DNA from: Shinella lacus
GTDB lineage: Bacteria; Pseudomonadota; Alphaproteobacteria; Rhizobiales; Rhizobiaceae
Assembly: GCF_010994755.1 (NCBI RefSeq)
Contig: NZ_WHSB02000011.1
Span: 117,023-181,022, forward strand
Direction of reading: 5' to 3'
DNA length: 64,000 bases
Position 1 is the first letter of the stretch, and every line of letters starts with the position of its first letter. A program made the position numbers and the translations under genes. Below are positions 54,776 to 59,831 of the stretch, piece after piece. The notes under the pieces are model-generated. The model did no database searches. It was not told the origin of the DNA and saw nothing but the letters and a program-made list of their open reading frames with translations.

Positions 54776-55222
54776 ATGATCAAGAAAACACCGAATCCGA
54801 TCGACGTCTTCGTCGGTTCCCGCGTTCGCCTGCGCAGGCTGATGGTCGGCATGAGCCAGGAGGCGCTTGCCGATCGGCTGGGTGTCACCTTCCAGCAGGT
54901 GCAGAAATACGAGAAGGGCACCAACCGCATCAGCGCGAGCCGCCTCCAGGCGATCTCGGAAGTCTTCCGCGTGCCGCCGAGCTTCTTCTTCCAGGACGAA
55001 GACAGCGCCATGCCATCCGCCGGTGCCGGCCACGAAACGGGCGACGTCTCGACCTTCGTATCCTCCAAGGAAGGTCTCGACCTCAACCGCGCCTTCCTGA
55101 AGATCGAGGATGCGGGTGTTCGCAAGTCGATCATCTCGCTCGCAACCGCGCTTTCCAAGGCAAGTGCCGCCGCCGCAGAGGCGAACGAACGCGCAGACAA
55201 CGCACCGGAACTACGGATCTGA
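54776..55222 (+). CDS. XRE-family HTH regulator, PraR-like
   Basis: A 148-residue regulator with an N-terminal HTH_3 domain: NPIDVFVGSRVRLRRLM, MSQEALADRLGVTFQQVQKYEKG, NRISASRLQ. This is the SinR/PraR-like type common in Rhizobiaceae. PraR controls quorum sensing and biofilm there. The C-terminal half is alanine-rich and divergent. ATG 54776 follows AGGGGAGAAAGCC. It is six bases upstream of the SARP-TPR gene and probably opens the operon leading to the YcaO-TfuA genes. Whether it regulates them is inference. Confidence 0.85.
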   Translation: MIKKTPNPIDVFVGSRVRLRRLMVGMSQEALADRLGVTFQQVQKYEKGTNRISASRLQAISEVFRVPPSFFFQDEDSAMPSAGAGHETGDVSTFVSSKEGLDLNRAFLKIEDAGVRKSIISLATALSKASAAAAEANERADNAPELRI

Positions 55223-55228
55223 CCCCAA

Positions 55229-57037
55229 ATGCCGGCACGGCTGCAGACGCTTGGACATCTGCGCCTGCTCGACGAGGGCGGTGAGGAGATCGCCTTTCCT
55301 GAAAAGGCGCTGCTGATCCTTTGTTATCTCCAGACGCGCGGCGTGCCGGACATGCCGCGTGCCGACGCGGCGAACCTCTTCTGGGACGACGCCAACAGCG
55401 CGGCCTCCTTCGCGAGCCTGCGCCAGACCATCTCCCGCGTGCAGAAACGCCAGCGGGAGCTCGACCGGACCTACCTCACCTTCACCGACACGACGATCGC
55501 CCGCGGGCCGGAGCCCATCGAAAGCGATGTCGACAAGGTGCGCGATGGCGCAAGCCTCGATGTGCTCGCCGACCTCCTGACCGACGATTTCCTCAAACAC
55601 GTCAAGCCGGGCAACCGCGTGCTTTCAAGCTGGATCGCCCTGCAGCGGGCGGGCCACGCGGCCCTGTTGCGCCGCGCTTTGCTGGACAGCCAGGCGCCAG
55701 GCACCGGAATGCGGGCCGCCCGCGCCACCGCCGCCCTTCGCCTGCTCGAAGGCAATCCCGATGACGATGAGGTGCGCGCCGTGCTGACCGGCCGCGCAGC
55801 CGCAACCACCAGCTTGATGGCCCTCCATCCGCCCGCCCGAGTGCTATTGCCGGAGGAGATGGATATCGCGTCCGCGCAGCAGACCCCACCGCGTGTCGTG
55901 CTATTGCCACCGGTCACCACGCTCACCCAACGCAACGCCGCGCTTTTTTCCGAAGCACTGATCGAGGACGTGACGATCGGGCTCTGCGCACTGCGCTCCA
56001 TCTCGATCATCGCGCCGCACACCGCTGCACAGATATCGCTTCAAGCCGATCGGGCCACGACCTACGAGCGTCACAAGATCAGCTATATCCTCGAGACGCG
56101 GCTGCGCGACGAGGGCGCCAGCCATACGCTGTTCGCCCAGCTCATCTTCTTCGGCAGCGACGAGGTGATCTGGGCCGAGCGTTTTCCGCTGTCGGCGGAA
56201 GGCCTTGCCCGCTCGCGACAGATGATCGCCCACCAGATCGCCGGTGCGATTGCCACGCAGATCGAAATGAACGAATTCGTTCGCAACGACTACGAGCTTG
56301 AAGCCGGCTCCTATCGAAGCTTTCTGGTCGGACAGGGTCTCCTCAAGAAACTCGACTTGCGTGACATCCGCCGAGCCCGCAAAAGCTTTCGCGACTCCTT
56401 GCAGTCAAGAGTCGATTTCGCGCCGGCAATGAGCGGGCTGTCGCGCAGCTATTTCCTCGAATGGTTGGTCACGGCGCGCGGCGATGCAGACCTCCTGAAA
56501 AAGGCCGAGCAACAGGCAGAAGAAACCATCCGCACAGACGAGCGCCTTGCCTCCGGCCATCGCGAGCTGGGCGTCGCAAAGCTCTATTCCCGCCAGTTCG
56601 ACGAAAGCGCCGAGCATTTGGAACGGGCCGAAACGTTGAGCCCGAACCACGCGAACGTTGTTGCGAGTTATGCTGATACGCTGGTTCAGGGATCGCGGCC
56701 GGATCTTGGCCTTAGGAAGATTCAGCGGGCGATCGATCTCAATCCGCTGCCACCGGATGATTATTTCTGGATCGCTGCCGGCGCCAGCTACTCCATAGGC
56801 CAATACGAACAGGCCCTAGACTATATCGCGCGCATGAAAGACCGCCTCCCGACAGATCGCCTAGCGGCGGCGAGTTGGGGCATGCTGGGCGATACAAAGA
56901 AGGCTCGGCAGTTCATACGCCGCACCTACGATGTCCATCCCAACTTCGATCTCGATAGCTGGATGGCGATTGTCCCCTTCAAGGAGGAATGGCAGCGCCA
57001 GCATTATTATGAGGGATTGAAGAAGGCCGGTTTCTGA
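55229..57037 (+). CDS. SARP-type regulator with TolB-like and TPR regions
   Basis: A 602-residue putative transcriptional regulator. The N-terminus (1-90) is a winged helix of SARP/OmpR kind (LGHLRLLDEGGEEIAFPEKA, SLRQTISRVQKRQREL). A BTAD-like helical region follows (about 95-190). Then comes a TolB/adenylate-cyclase-associated segment (VLLPPVTTLTQRNAALFSEAL, about 225-330), and TPR-like repeats (ASGHRELGVAKLYSRQFDES and YEQALDYIARM) run to the end. There is no cyclase catalytic domain. It sits immediately before the two peptide genes. The 3' half uses visibly more A/T-rich codons. It is the likely cluster-specific activator. Confidence 0.75.
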   Translation: MPARLQTLGHLRLLDEGGEEIAFPEKALLILCYLQTRGVPDMPRADAANLFWDDANSAASFASLRQTISRVQKRQRELDRTYLTFTDTTIARGPEPIESDVDKVRDGASLDVLADLLTDDFLKHVKPGNRVLSSWIALQRAGHAALLRRALLDSQAPGTGMRAARATAALRLLEGNPDDDEVRAVLTGRAAATTSLMALHPPARVLLPEEMDIASAQQTPPRVVLLPPVTTLTQRNAALFSEALIEDVTIGLCALRSISIIAPHTAAQISLQADRATTYERHKISYILETRLRDEGASHTLFAQLIFFGSDEVIWAERFPLSAEGLARSRQMIAHQIAGAIATQIEMNEFVRNDYELEAGSYRSFLVGQGLLKKLDLRDIRRARKSFRDSLQSRVDFAPAMSGLSRSYFLEWLVTARGDADLLKKAEQQAEETIRTDERLASGHRELGVAKLYSRQFDESAEHLERAETLSPNHANVVASYADTLVQGSRPDLGLRKIQRAIDLNPLPPDDYFWIAAGASYSIGQYEQALDYIARMKDRLPTDRLAAASWGMLGDTKKARQFIRRTYDVHPNFDLDSWMAIVPFKEEWQRQHYYEGLKKAGF

Positions 57038-57068
57038 TCATCAACTCTCCATCGAAAGGAATGACAAC

Positions 57069-57329
57069 ATGGCAAGAATCGTTGTGCTGGGCGTGCAAGG
57101 TGAAGAAGGCCTTTGGCTAGCCGATCTCGATGCCGGCACCGTGGCAGCGCTTCCGGTACCATCAACGGGCGCGCTAAAGACGGCGGATGACCTCCGCAAG
57201 GCAGGCGCAACCATCACCAAAGGCGTCAACCTTGCCGCACTCGCGACATCGATCGATGCCGCTTCCGGTGGCTACATGGATGCCAGTGGCGGCTATATGG
57301 ACGCCGATGGCGGATACATGGACAAATAA
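57069..57329 (+). CDS. Candidate RiPP precursor peptide 1 with triple C-terminal repeat
   Basis: An 86-residue peptide with no recognised family. The N-terminal part MARIVVLGVQGEEGLWLADL and AGTV are shared with the next peptide, as are ADDLRKAG and KGVNLA. The C-terminus is three heptads at residues 66-72, 73-79 and 80-86, reading SGGYMDA, SGGYMDA and DGGYMDK. It has no Cys and no signal peptide. ATG 57069 follows AAAGGAATGACAAC, 31 bp after the SARP gene. A leader-like N-terminus, a repeated Gly-rich C-terminus, a paralogue and adjacent YcaO and TfuA together suggest a modified-peptide precursor. The function is inferred. Confidence 0.75.
   Translation: MARIVVLGVQGEEGLWLADLDAGTVAALPVPSTGALKTADDLRKAGATITKGVNLAALATSIDAASGGYMDASGGYMDADGGYMDK
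57264..57326 (+). repeat. Three in-frame 21-bp repeats encoding SGGYMD heptads
   Basis: Codons 66-86 of precursor 1 form three 21-nt units. The peptide units are near identical while third bases vary (GGT GGC TAC ATG, GGC GGC TAT ATG, GGC GGA TAC ATG). This suggests selection on the peptide rather than a fresh DNA duplication. Confidence 0.85.
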
Positions 57330-57372
57330 ACGTACGTTCAGATCACGAAGCTTCAACCAGAGGAGAAGTAAA

Positions 57373-57573
57373 ATGTCGAAAGTCGTTGTTCTTGGACTCG
57401 AAGGTGAAAACGGGCTTTGGGTCGCAGACCTGAAGGCGGGCACGGTTACGGCCGTTGCAGCGAATGTTGCAGATGATCTGCGCAAAGCCGGCGAGTTTGC
57501 GCCGCGCGGTGTCAGTTTTGCAACGGTCGCCCAGACAGCGGACGAGCTCTCCGGCGGCTTTTACGACAAGTGA
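57373..57573 (+). CDS. Candidate RiPP precursor peptide 2
   Basis: A 66-residue paralogue of precursor 1. VVVLG, GE, GLWVADL, AGTV, VADDLRKAG and RGVSFA are conserved. It then ends with only one copy of the terminal motif, SGGFYDK, against SGGYMDA/DGGYMDK. ATG 57373 follows AGGAGAAGTAA. It is 43 bp after precursor 1 and 19 bp before the YcaO gene. Conserved N-termini with variable C-termini are what is expected of leader and core regions. There is no Cys and no signal peptide. Confidence 0.75.
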   Translation: MSKVVVLGLEGENGLWVADLKAGTVTAVAANVADDLRKAGEFAPRGVSFATVAQTADELSGGFYDK

Positions 57574-57592
57574 GCGCCTGGTGGCTTGAAGC

Positions 57593-58777
57593 GTGACGAC
57601 CTATTCGGACCGTATCTGCGGCCCTGAACAGACCTGGAGCCGGATCGAGGCGCTTCTGCCCCGGTTCGGCATCACGCGGCTTTCGCGCCTGACGTGGTTG
57701 GACCGCATCGGCATCCCTGTCTGGAACGCCGTCAGTCCCAATGCCCGCTCGATCGTCATCAATCAGGGCAAGGGCATCACCGATATCGACGCAAAGGTCT
57801 CCGCCGCCATGGAGGCGCTGGAACGGGCCATTGCGGGCGAACCACTCGTGCCGGTGCGCTACGCATCGCGACGCGATTTTGCAGATGCCGGCGAGCAATG
57901 TCTGCCCCTCGACATCTTCGTTGCGGCTGGACAGGCGTTCCTCGCCGAGGAGGAAAAGCTCGACTGGTTCGCCGGCCGGGATGTCATGACCGGCGAGCGC
58001 GTCTGGGTGCCGCGCGACGCGATCTGCCTTGACAGGACCGATCGTGCACCGCGCTTCTGGCAGTCCTCCGACGGCCTCGCCTCCGGCAATTCCGAGACCG
58101 AGGCGACCCTGCACGGTCTTCTGGAACGCATCGAGCGCGATGCCGACCGGCTCTGGCGCCTGCTGCCCCGCGACAAACGTCTTACAACCGCCATCGACCC
58201 CGCCGGCTTCAATGATCCGGTCGTCGATACGCTCGTTGGCCGTTTTCGCGAAGCCAAGCTGGAGCTGCGCTTCTTTGATATCACCAGCGATCTCGCCATC
58301 CCGACCTATGCTGCCGTGCTAGGCGATACCGGCATCCTCGACAAGAGGGAGCCGCTCTTCCACGATGCCACGGTCGGCTACGGCACCCATCCCGTCGCCG
58401 CGCGCGCCATCATCCGCGCGCTCACCGAGGTCGCGCAATCGCGCCTCACCTATATCAGCGGCGCGCGGGACGATCTTTTCGCCGAAACCTTCACCCGGCC
58501 GCTGGCGCCGGAAACGCTCGCCCTCTTCGAGGCCCGGCCCGGCCCGCTAAGAACCCACCCCGCCCCTTCGGGCGACGCCGCGGCCTTGCTCGCCCATTGC
58601 CTGGAGGTGCTCGCCACATCGGGCATAACACCCGTCGTCGCTGTGCCGTTGACCGACGCCTCGCTTCCCATATCCGTGGTCAAGATGGTCGTGCCCACCC
58701 TGGAAAACCCGGAGGGCGCGCGCCGCCATGCCGTCGGCTCCCGCGCACTCTCCCGCATGCTGTTCGGAACCTCATGA
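57593..58777 (+). CDS. YcaO-domain cyclodehydratase/thioamidase-type enzyme
   Basis: A 394-residue YcaO protein. YcaO enzymes use ATP to activate peptide-backbone amides. With TfuA they are linked to thioamide formation. Family motifs are GITDIDAKVSAAMEALERA (about 61-79), SSDGLASGNSETEATLHGLLERIERDA landmarks GLASGNSETE (161-170) and LLERIERDA (176-184), and QSRLTYISGARDDL (282-295). The C-terminus (ALSRMLFGTS) has no PxPxP motif, unlike azoline-forming YcaOs. The start is GTG 57593, after GGTGGCTTGAA. It overlaps tfuA by ATGA, indicating a paired complex. Confidence 0.92.
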   Translation: MTTYSDRICGPEQTWSRIEALLPRFGITRLSRLTWLDRIGIPVWNAVSPNARSIVINQGKGITDIDAKVSAAMEALERAIAGEPLVPVRYASRRDFADAGEQCLPLDIFVAAGQAFLAEEEKLDWFAGRDVMTGERVWVPRDAICLDRTDRAPRFWQSSDGLASGNSETEATLHGLLERIERDADRLWRLLPRDKRLTTAIDPAGFNDPVVDTLVGRFREAKLELRFFDITSDLAIPTYAAVLGDTGILDKREPLFHDATVGYGTHPVAARAIIRALTEVAQSRLTYISGARDDLFAETFTRPLAPETLALFEARPGPLRTHPAPSGDAAALLAHCLEVLATSGITPVVAVPLTDASLPISVVKMVVPTLENPEGARRHAVGSRALSRMLFGTS

Positions 58778-59490
58778 AAATCCTCTTCGCCGGTCCCAGC
58801 CTGCCCGATGCCGCGAAGCTCTGCGGCGACGCCATCCGCGTCCGTCCGCCGGCGGCGCATGGCGATGTGCTGGCCGCGGTGCGCGAAGGCGCCAAGGCAA
58901 TCGGCATTATCGACGGCAATTTCGAGCATGTGGCGCCCGTCTGGCACAAGGAGATCCTCCATGCACTCGACCAGGGCTTGGCCGTCTTCGGCGCGGCCAG
59001 CATGGGGGCGTTGCGCGCCGCTGAATGCGATGCCTTCGGCATGGTCGGCGTCGGTTCCATCTATGAGGACTATGCCAGCGGCCGCCGCGTCGACGACGCC
59101 GATGTCGCGCTGCTGCACGGTCCGGCCGAACTCGGCTACCCCGCCCTCTCGCTGCCGCTCGTCAATGTCGACGCGACGCTCGATCGACTGGAGACTGGCG
59201 AGGCCCTTGATAAACCGAATATTTCACGCTTTCGAGATGTTGCGCGGCAGCTCTTTTACAAAGACAGAACGTGGTCTGCGATCATCGAAGCGGCCGGCAA
59301 GGCCGGGGAGCGGCAACACCTCCTGCAACTTCTCCACGCAACAACCGTGAACCAAAAGCGTAAGGACGCCCTCGCGCTGGTGCGAATCCTGACCGATTTC
59401 GCCCCGCAAAGCCCTGCAAAACGGGGAAACTGGGTCTTTCGGGCGACGACGCTATGGCGGACCGTCGCAGATCAACCTGAAACCTCATAA
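58774..59490 (+). CDS. TfuA-like core-domain protein
   Basis: A 238-residue TfuA-like protein. The core (about 1-130) contains FAGPSLPDAAKL, IDGNFEHVAPVWHKEILHAL, VFGAASMGALRAAEC and GVGSIYEDYASG, typical of TfuA from the trifolitoxin system of Rhizobium. TfuA partners of YcaO are thought to deliver sulfur for backbone thioamidation. The last 100 residues are less conserved and use more A/T-rich codons. It starts in the ATGA overlap with the YcaO gene and ends the operon. No protease, dehydrogenase or exporter follows. Confidence 0.9.
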   Translation: MKILFAGPSLPDAAKLCGDAIRVRPPAAHGDVLAAVREGAKAIGIIDGNFEHVAPVWHKEILHALDQGLAVFGAASMGALRAAECDAFGMVGVGSIYEDYASGRRVDDADVALLHGPAELGYPALSLPLVNVDATLDRLETGEALDKPNISRFRDVARQLFYKDRTWSAIIEAAGKAGERQHLLQLLHATTVNQKRKDALALVRILTDFAPQSPAKRGNWVFRATTLWRTVADQPETS

Positions 59491-59606: not shown

Positions 59607-59831
59607 ATGGAAATCGAAACCACAGAAATTGAAGACCGCGGCACGGAAATGATGGCGCTTGCACGGCTCGTCGCTTTCGCGCTGGAATCTGCAAGATCAA
59701 TGGATGCCGAGGTGGTGGAATTCTGCCTGGAAAAGGCGCTGCGTGCCGTGCTGGACCAGATCGACGAGCCGTCGCGCATGACGCTGACGTCGAGCGACAT
59801 CATGCTGATGAACCGGTCGGCGCTCTGCTGA
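59607..59831 (+). CDS. Small hypothetical protein
   Basis: A 74-residue acidic protein (MEIETTEIEDRGTEMMAL). The middle is likely a single helix (LARLVAFALESARSMDAEVVEFCLEKA), and it ends in Cys. No family is recognised. Its codon use fits the genome, and a repeat array and -10-like box precede it, so I think it is real. It follows the tfuA gene by 116 bp and is not clearly in that operon. The ribosome-binding site is weak. Confidence 0.55.
   Translation: MEIETTEIEDRGTEMMALARLVAFALESARSMDAEVVEFCLEKALRAVLDQIDEPSRMTLTSSDIMLMNRSALC

Follow-up and report, generated by a model that had tools for sequence, protein, structure and literature searches.

The window analysed here, 64,000 nucleotides of a Shinella lacus contig (NZ_WHSB02000011.1, positions 117,023 to 181,022), carries at 54776..59490 an operon in which the genes of two small peptides, PA1 and PA2, stand between two regulator genes and the genes of a YcaO and a TfuA protein. 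We consider it probable (about 0.6) that this enzyme pair thioamidates (exchanges a backbone oxygen for sulphur at) the motif glycine of peptides with a G-x-x-[DE] core module, encoded next to the enzymes as well as elsewhere in the same genome. In the window, precursor peptides with leader and core are encoded next to the enzymes, and the order regulator, peptide, YcaO, TfuA recurs in Shinella, Ensifer, Rhizobium and Phyllobacterium, beyond what chance would give. An uncharacterised YcaO-TfuA modification operon with leader-core peptides, as proposed by an earlier note on this DNA, is well backed by sequence comparison.

Precursor peptides, core module and enzymes

PA1 (86 amino acids, 57069..57329, + strand) was defined by translation, homologues, alignment, structure model and repeats, PA2 (66 amino acids, 57373..57573, + strand) by translation and alignment. 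PA1 and PA2 are 51-53 % identical, in agreement with the paralogy claimed earlier. Neither peptide matched a Pfam family at E ≤ 1. A search over 5.8 billion proteins yielded 72 relatives of PA1 (weakest E value 8.5e-9), all free of Pfam domains; the named ones belonged to Shinella, Pararhizobium, Neorhizobium and Rhizobium. The peptides form a large unnamed family and are no local oddity, being present in 112 of 120 Rhizobium genomes. Their N-terminal half is conserved between genera. The model of PA1 comprises three strands and a helix (beta-beta-beta-alpha) with a predicted local distance difference test score (pLDDT) of 68-85 per ten residues up to residue 50; the tail, with a pLDDT below 50, is predicted to be disordered and carries the core modules. 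PA1 ends in SGGYMDASGGYMDADGGYMDK, which contains the three tandem modules SGGYMDA, SGGYMDA and DGGYMDK (codons 65-85, 57261..57323, + strand; from sequence and codon comparison) with the glycine ahead of tyrosine as predicted thioamidation site, PA2 has one module and the C-terminal SGGFYDK, and Shinella peptides in general present the module in one to three copies. Of the expected architecture, a conserved N-terminus and a variable, glycine-rich C-terminus, the first part was confirmed; the C-terminus is more than glycine-rich and forms a conserved module, tandemly triplicated in PA1. Within Shinella a variable core is not apparent, as the ratio of replaced to silent codons in eight peptides of 86 amino acids was 0.59 for leader residues 1-56 and 0.77 for the repeats. 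By the same ratios, the core taken altogether shows no stronger conservation than the leader.

The pattern x-[GS]-x-x-[DE] ends 53 of 54 Rhizobiaceae-type peptides, a set that omits 28 rows of the Phyllobacterium group and the frame-disrupted rows of locus L056. Glycine occupies the second position in 51 of these, followed mostly by H, F, Y or L and then by M, F, L, V or Y; the full motif is G-[HFYLVR]-[MFLVY]-[DE]. Because the search pattern itself fixed those positions, 46 tails were shuffled: the glycine module was observed in 43, whereas 1000 shuffles gave 3.6 on average and never more than 11. All 13 orphan peptides, encoded apart from the enzymes, keep the module. The Gly-Gly-Tyr formerly suggested as the site of modification is too narrow in view of this motif, and the cores of Phyllobacterium are of another kind. 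Codon pairs of the GG[YF][ML]D copies inside one peptide (12 Shinella peptides; L009 lacks such repeats and was omitted) comprised 50 silent, 0 replacing and 90 identical pairs in a comparison able to reveal only Y/F and M/L replacements, whereas the first modules of different species had 84 silent and 52 replacing differences in 330 codon pairs. Thus each peptide is all-Tyr or all-Phe and all-Met or all-Leu, although the DNA of its copies has drifted apart. Repeats also occur in other lineages, as GLHE in L051, as FSGxYK-like units in L044 and L176 and as RSDPSERAYSFDG in Phyllobacterium. In the Phyllobacterium group (L018-L036) each of the 14 peptide-bearing loci encodes two peptides, the second often with a long repeat core of RSDPSERAYSFDG or RSNPSERAHSAGPVV units.

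YcaO (394 amino acids, GTG start, 57593..58777, + strand) matched PF02624 over its full length (1.4e-64) including the ATP-binding domain, with MJ1094 (6pe3, 1.7e-38) as closest solved chain. TfuA (238 amino acids, 58774..59490, + strand), whose gene overlaps that of YcaO by four bases, matched PF07812 (2.3e-42) and aligned to the solved TfuA 6xp8 (6.2e-30). YcaO is predicted to be an ATP-dependent, thioamide-forming modifier of the peptide backbone, TfuA to be the partner delivering sulphur. Compared with models of the thioamidation of the McrA glycine, YcaO reached 209.9 bits for TIGR03266 (cut-off 365) and TfuA 175.4 bits for NF033432 (cut-off 235.2). Since both scores lie under the cut-offs, the two proteins resemble the McrA-thioamidation proteins in kind without belonging to the same subfamily. 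The source genome (7.04 Mb, 53 contigs) encodes a single YcaO.

The favoured course of events starts from the gene order seen in the sequence: TPR regulator, peptide, YcaO, TfuA and a small open reading frame (ORF) of 74 amino acids. By its model, the peptide would fold in its N-terminal half and bear the core modules on a tail that is disordered. From their families, YcaO would activate the backbone amide with ATP and TfuA would supply sulphide from a carrier. The modified site may be the motif glycine, as suggested by its conservation and by its likeness to the thioglycine in McrA of Methanosarcina, for which YcaO and TfuA are required and in which Gly465 lies in LGFFGFDLQDQ (PMC5589413). 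In both cases glycine is followed by an aromatic residue and aspartate, although the site in the peptides is predicted and the McrA substrate is a large enzyme instead of a small peptide (PMC5589413). Four points together argue for a thioamide at this glycine: the TfuA partner, the scarcity of cysteine, the modules free of serine and threonine, and a G-[FY]-x-D that resembles Gly465-Phe-Asp. As the conserved gene set contains no dedicated protease, exporter or immunity gene, general peptidases are proposed to free short thioamidated modules, in the manner proposed for the thiovarsolins (PMC6511847). The enzymes would also act in trans on peptides encoded elsewhere, since peptide, YcaO and TfuA stay in one genome after the operon has been split. 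In the simplest view, one YcaO-TfuA machine per genome would modify every peptide with a leader of the PA1 type, wherever it is encoded.

Co-occurrence and splitting of the operon

Among 297 Rhizobiaceae genomes, 49 encoded the peptide, 86 TfuA and 105 YcaO. TfuA and YcaO were present in 49 of the 49 peptide-bearing genomes, TfuA in 37 of the 248 others (Fisher 8e-33, uncorrected for kinship). Eight of the 57 peptide places were more than 5 kb distant from TfuA. YcaO remained beside the peptide and TfuA lay elsewhere next to an XRE gene in G045, G138 and G257; five of the eight places had neither enzyme nearby. A set of 120 Rhizobium genomes comprised 112 with the peptide and 114 with TfuA: both were found in 112, the peptide only in none, TfuA only in two and neither in six (Fisher 7.7e-9, likewise uncorrected), and the latter six lacked YcaO as well. 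The 148 peptide places of this set fell into at least 100 within 5 kb of TfuA and at most 48 unlinked ones. A wide occurrence of the peptides without YcaO or TfuA nearby had been named earlier as evidence against the proposed pathway. Such places do exist locally (at most 48 of 148); at the level of the genome, TfuA accompanied the peptide in 49 of 49 and 112 of 112 cases.

Twenty Rhizobium genomes had no peptide near TfuA among the matches listed (six of them with every TfuA listed), and all 20 encoded TfuA and YcaO. In 16 TfuA loci from 15 of these genomes neither a peptide nor a full regulator was found, but YcaO beside TfuA in 14, the XRE gene in 10 and a regulator remnant in four. The enzyme locus of G029 retains a decayed start of the regulator and an apparently decayed peptide, while an intact pair resides on another contig (L130). 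G331 and G351 have YcaO alone on C1, TfuA alone elsewhere and a regulator-peptide pair at a third place (L055 for G331; located by search only for G351). Of 56 peptide loci, eight lacked YcaO (L042, L045, L048, L049, L050, L052, L055 and L060). In the regulator tree, which has several long branches, 12 orphan pairs require at least four changes; eight of them fall into one clade. Repeated splitting of the operon has separated an enzyme half from a regulator-peptide half, and both were retained. The regulator directly upstream of the peptide, a protein with a TPR superhelix, goes with the peptide, the XRE gene with the enzyme half. The XRE gene adjoins TfuA alone in L043, L135, L138 and L141.

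Several observations weigh against the proposed thioamidation in cis and trans. The chemistry is deduced here from genes, and neither YcaO nor TfuA reaches the cut-off of its McrA-thioamidation model. Part of the motif count stems from the imposed pattern. Phyllobacterium cores (RSDPSERAYSFDG) do not fit G-x-x-[DE], so that the glycine site does not hold for every member of the leader family. The Fisher values are uncorrected for kinship, and linked copies render the 49 of 49 partly trivial, which is why the unlinked copies matter. Local linkage is loose: of the 112 Rhizobium genomes with the peptide, 42 encode one or more copies that are not near any of the TfuA matches listed. Finally, G320 and G343 (both Rhizobium) have TfuA and YcaO and no peptide, and 37 of the 86 TfuA genomes in the wider draw lack it too; thus the enzymes also serve other substrates.

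Some loci depart from these arrangements. In Sinorhizobium meliloti 1021, pSymB carries XRE and TfuA genes with no YcaO, regulator or peptide in the 12.7 kb covered (L043). The orphan pair L052 on a plasmid of Rhizobium leguminosarum Gr 12/7 is preceded (L052:142-2681) by a HEXXH putative peptide modification protein and a ThiF-like adenylyltransferase, and an S8 peptidase, cut at the edge, is also upstream. In Neorhizobium galegae VafX2 the regulator and peptide frames seem to be open, but the YcaO and TfuA matches that follow them are spread over several frames (L057:5239-7059), reflecting either broken genes or sequencing errors.

Regulators and the role of the peptide

The TPR regulator (602 amino acids, 55229..57037, + strand; TPR_2 1.6e-6 in Pfam, structure model) was assigned before to the SARP family. 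BTAD was not reached by Pfam for the window protein, yet two of four scanned homologues passed the BTAD cut-off and the model has a winged-helix-like N-terminus, so the label may stand as SARP/BTAD-like. In the model (mean pLDDT 80.5) this N-terminal part is joined by a helical and an alpha/beta part and by a TPR superhelix. Foldseek matched it to TPR proteins and CadC, with an alpha/beta domain like those of CadC and TolB; peptide-binding TPR proteins were among the best structural matches of the superhelix. The protein had no HTH_3 match; the HTH_3 protein of the operon is a separate gene. Of 72 clusters, 70 have a TPR regulator immediately upstream of the peptide, with 56 of 56 loci (first copy) and 10 of 10, 4 of 4 and 0 of 1 in further sets, the second cluster of L044 being devoid of a regulator; among the 72, L148 and L171 repeat L015 and L060.

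The peptide may itself be a signal, its thioamidated tail serving as ligand of the upstream TPR regulator, so that the pairs would be autoregulatory and YcaO-TfuA their shared maturation system. This is a tentative reading, made plausible by the TPR superhelix with its peptide-binding relatives and by the fact that the regulator stays with the peptide and not with the enzymes. The repeated origin of two-gene orphan pairs (four or more origins by the regulator tree, with the one clade of eight) is in line with it, as are the flanks of 15 loci (2.3 to 8 kb, ORFs of at least 90 codons), which have no gene common to three or more loci except ABC ATPases at varying places. Likeness to TPR proteins does not establish a ligand, however, and pathway regulators commonly adjoin their targets in biosynthetic clusters. 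Such regulators also precede YcaO-TfuA together with other peptides (L016, L017, L029, L031, L033), the set includes neither exporter nor importer, and the orphan regulator of the genome itself matches only model positions 250-638, lacking the N-terminal DNA-binding part. An extension to a dispersed rhizobial signalling network, in which TPR-regulator/peptide pairs scattered over chromosome and plasmids would share one YcaO-TfuA acting in trans and the thioamidated G-x-x-[DE] tail would act on the adjacent regulator as a ligand, either intracellular or exchanged, is speculative and somewhat doubtful. A secreted, bacteriocin-like thioamidated peptide of antimicrobial or cytotoxic action, for which the TPR protein would simply activate the pathway, appears rather unlikely. 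The characterised bacterial products of YcaO-TfuA are bioactive ribosomally synthesized and post-translationally modified peptides (RiPPs) (PMC8120280, PMC6511847) and the system is located on plasmids in many rhizobia; on the other hand, Pfam as well as locus and flank comparisons revealed in the conserved set no gene dedicated to export, proteolysis or immunity, and presence in 112 of 120 Rhizobium genomes suggests a more central function than that of a strain-specific weapon.

Two further explanations question the chemistry or the link to the enzymes. YcaO of other clusters forms azolines on cysteine, serine and threonine, and some cores contain serine. Azoline formation in these peptides is nevertheless very improbable, because one cysteine was counted in all 54 tails and 11 terminal modules contain no Cys, Ser or Thr; TfuA moreover occurred in every peptide-bearing genome searched, and the closest NCBIfam model is that of the McrA-glycine thioamidation protein. 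That the peptides are folded small proteins, adjacent to YcaO-TfuA through the accident of a shared regulator, would suit the predicted fold of the conserved N-terminal half and the many unlinked copies. It is improbable in the face of the exact co-occurrence at the genome level, the loss of local peptides that were kept elsewhere in the genome, and the tails, which are conserved, repeated and disordered.

Among known systems the thiovarsolins of Streptomyces varsoviensis (VarA/VarY/VarT) come closest in having a YcaO-TfuA pair, a precursor with tandemly repeated core and no dedicated protease, endogenous peptidases being proposed for release (PMC6511847). Their core is APR/GPR with the thioamide at Pro-Arg, in contrast to GGYMD or G-x-x-[DE], and the parts of that account consulted describe neither TPR regulator-peptide pairs nor peptides in trans (PMC6511847). 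Thioamidation of uL16 by the E. coli YcaO is likewise a YcaO-dependent backbone modification in Pseudomonadota; it differs by a folded ribosomal protein as substrate and by the lack of TfuA (PMC13063428). The RRNPP regulators of Gram-positive bacteria, as far as the sources consulted describe them, are alike in combining DNA binding and TPR in a protein encoded beside a small peptide gene; the present regulators have a SARP/BTAD-like winged helix instead of HTH_3, occur in alpha-proteobacteria together with modification enzymes, and sense peptides only putatively. Malit et al. (2021) counted more than 500 TfuA-related clusters in Rhizobium (PMC8120280), hence clusters like that of the window are probably among them. 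The parts of their text consulted mention neither Shinella nor a TPR regulator-peptide pair, a G-x-x-[DE] module, a split operon or peptides in trans (PMC8120280). In the literature searched, no description of the PA1 leader family, of the regulator-peptide pairs or of the split system was found. If the proposal is correct, backbone thioamidation would be nearly universal in Rhizobium (112 of 120 genomes drawn encode the peptide), and the genes of thioamidated peptides would move together with a regulator instead of the enzymes. Precursor mining restricted to YcaO-TfuA neighbourhoods would miss the unlinked peptides. A precise substrate motif would be available for testing, with orphan peptides and split genomes as clear controls, and the role of the founder gene family tfuA in rhizobia would become testable.

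Other genes of the operon and its surroundings

The operon was described earlier as six genes, and their places, strand (all +) and the five intergenic gaps of 6, 31, 43, 19 and -4 bases agree with the window sequence. It begins with the XRE-family HTH regulator (148 amino acids, 54776..55222, + strand; HTH_3 1.1e-15 in Pfam), followed by the SARP/BTAD-TPR regulator, PA1, PA2, YcaO and TfuA. Two tandem precursors, as noted before, are a property of the window, not a rule: they occur in two of 13 Shinella loci (the window and L009). A conserved ORF overlooked by the earlier note, 74 amino acids at 59607..59831 (+ strand), is the seventh member of the set, recognised by homologues behind the enzymes in other loci and free of Pfam or NCBIfam matches. 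Of the Rhizobiaceae loci having both peptide and YcaO, 34 of 34 carry a homologue behind the enzymes. Within the set of 56 loci, none of the 14 from the Phyllobacterium group and none of the 8 orphan loci had it; in later sets two of eight orphan loci did (L146, and L173 on the opposite strand). In most cases it thus accompanies the enzyme half.

A second regulator-peptide pair of the source genome, without YcaO and TfuA, is located on contig C24 (L042:4460-5994). Close to the operon, the window also has genes for amino-acid ABC transporters, for a sigma-70 factor and for a Bax1-I protein. Other types of small peptides were seen in comparable positions: between TPR regulator and YcaO-TfuA in Rhizobium altiplani (L031:6601-6729, ending in IVHALKFR) and Aureimonas ureilytica (L029:6573-6716, VVHAMKFR), and ahead of YcaO-TfuA in an alphaproteobacterial metagenome-assembled genome, where a peptide of 73 amino acids contains two AAHVLYR repeats (L017:953-1171).

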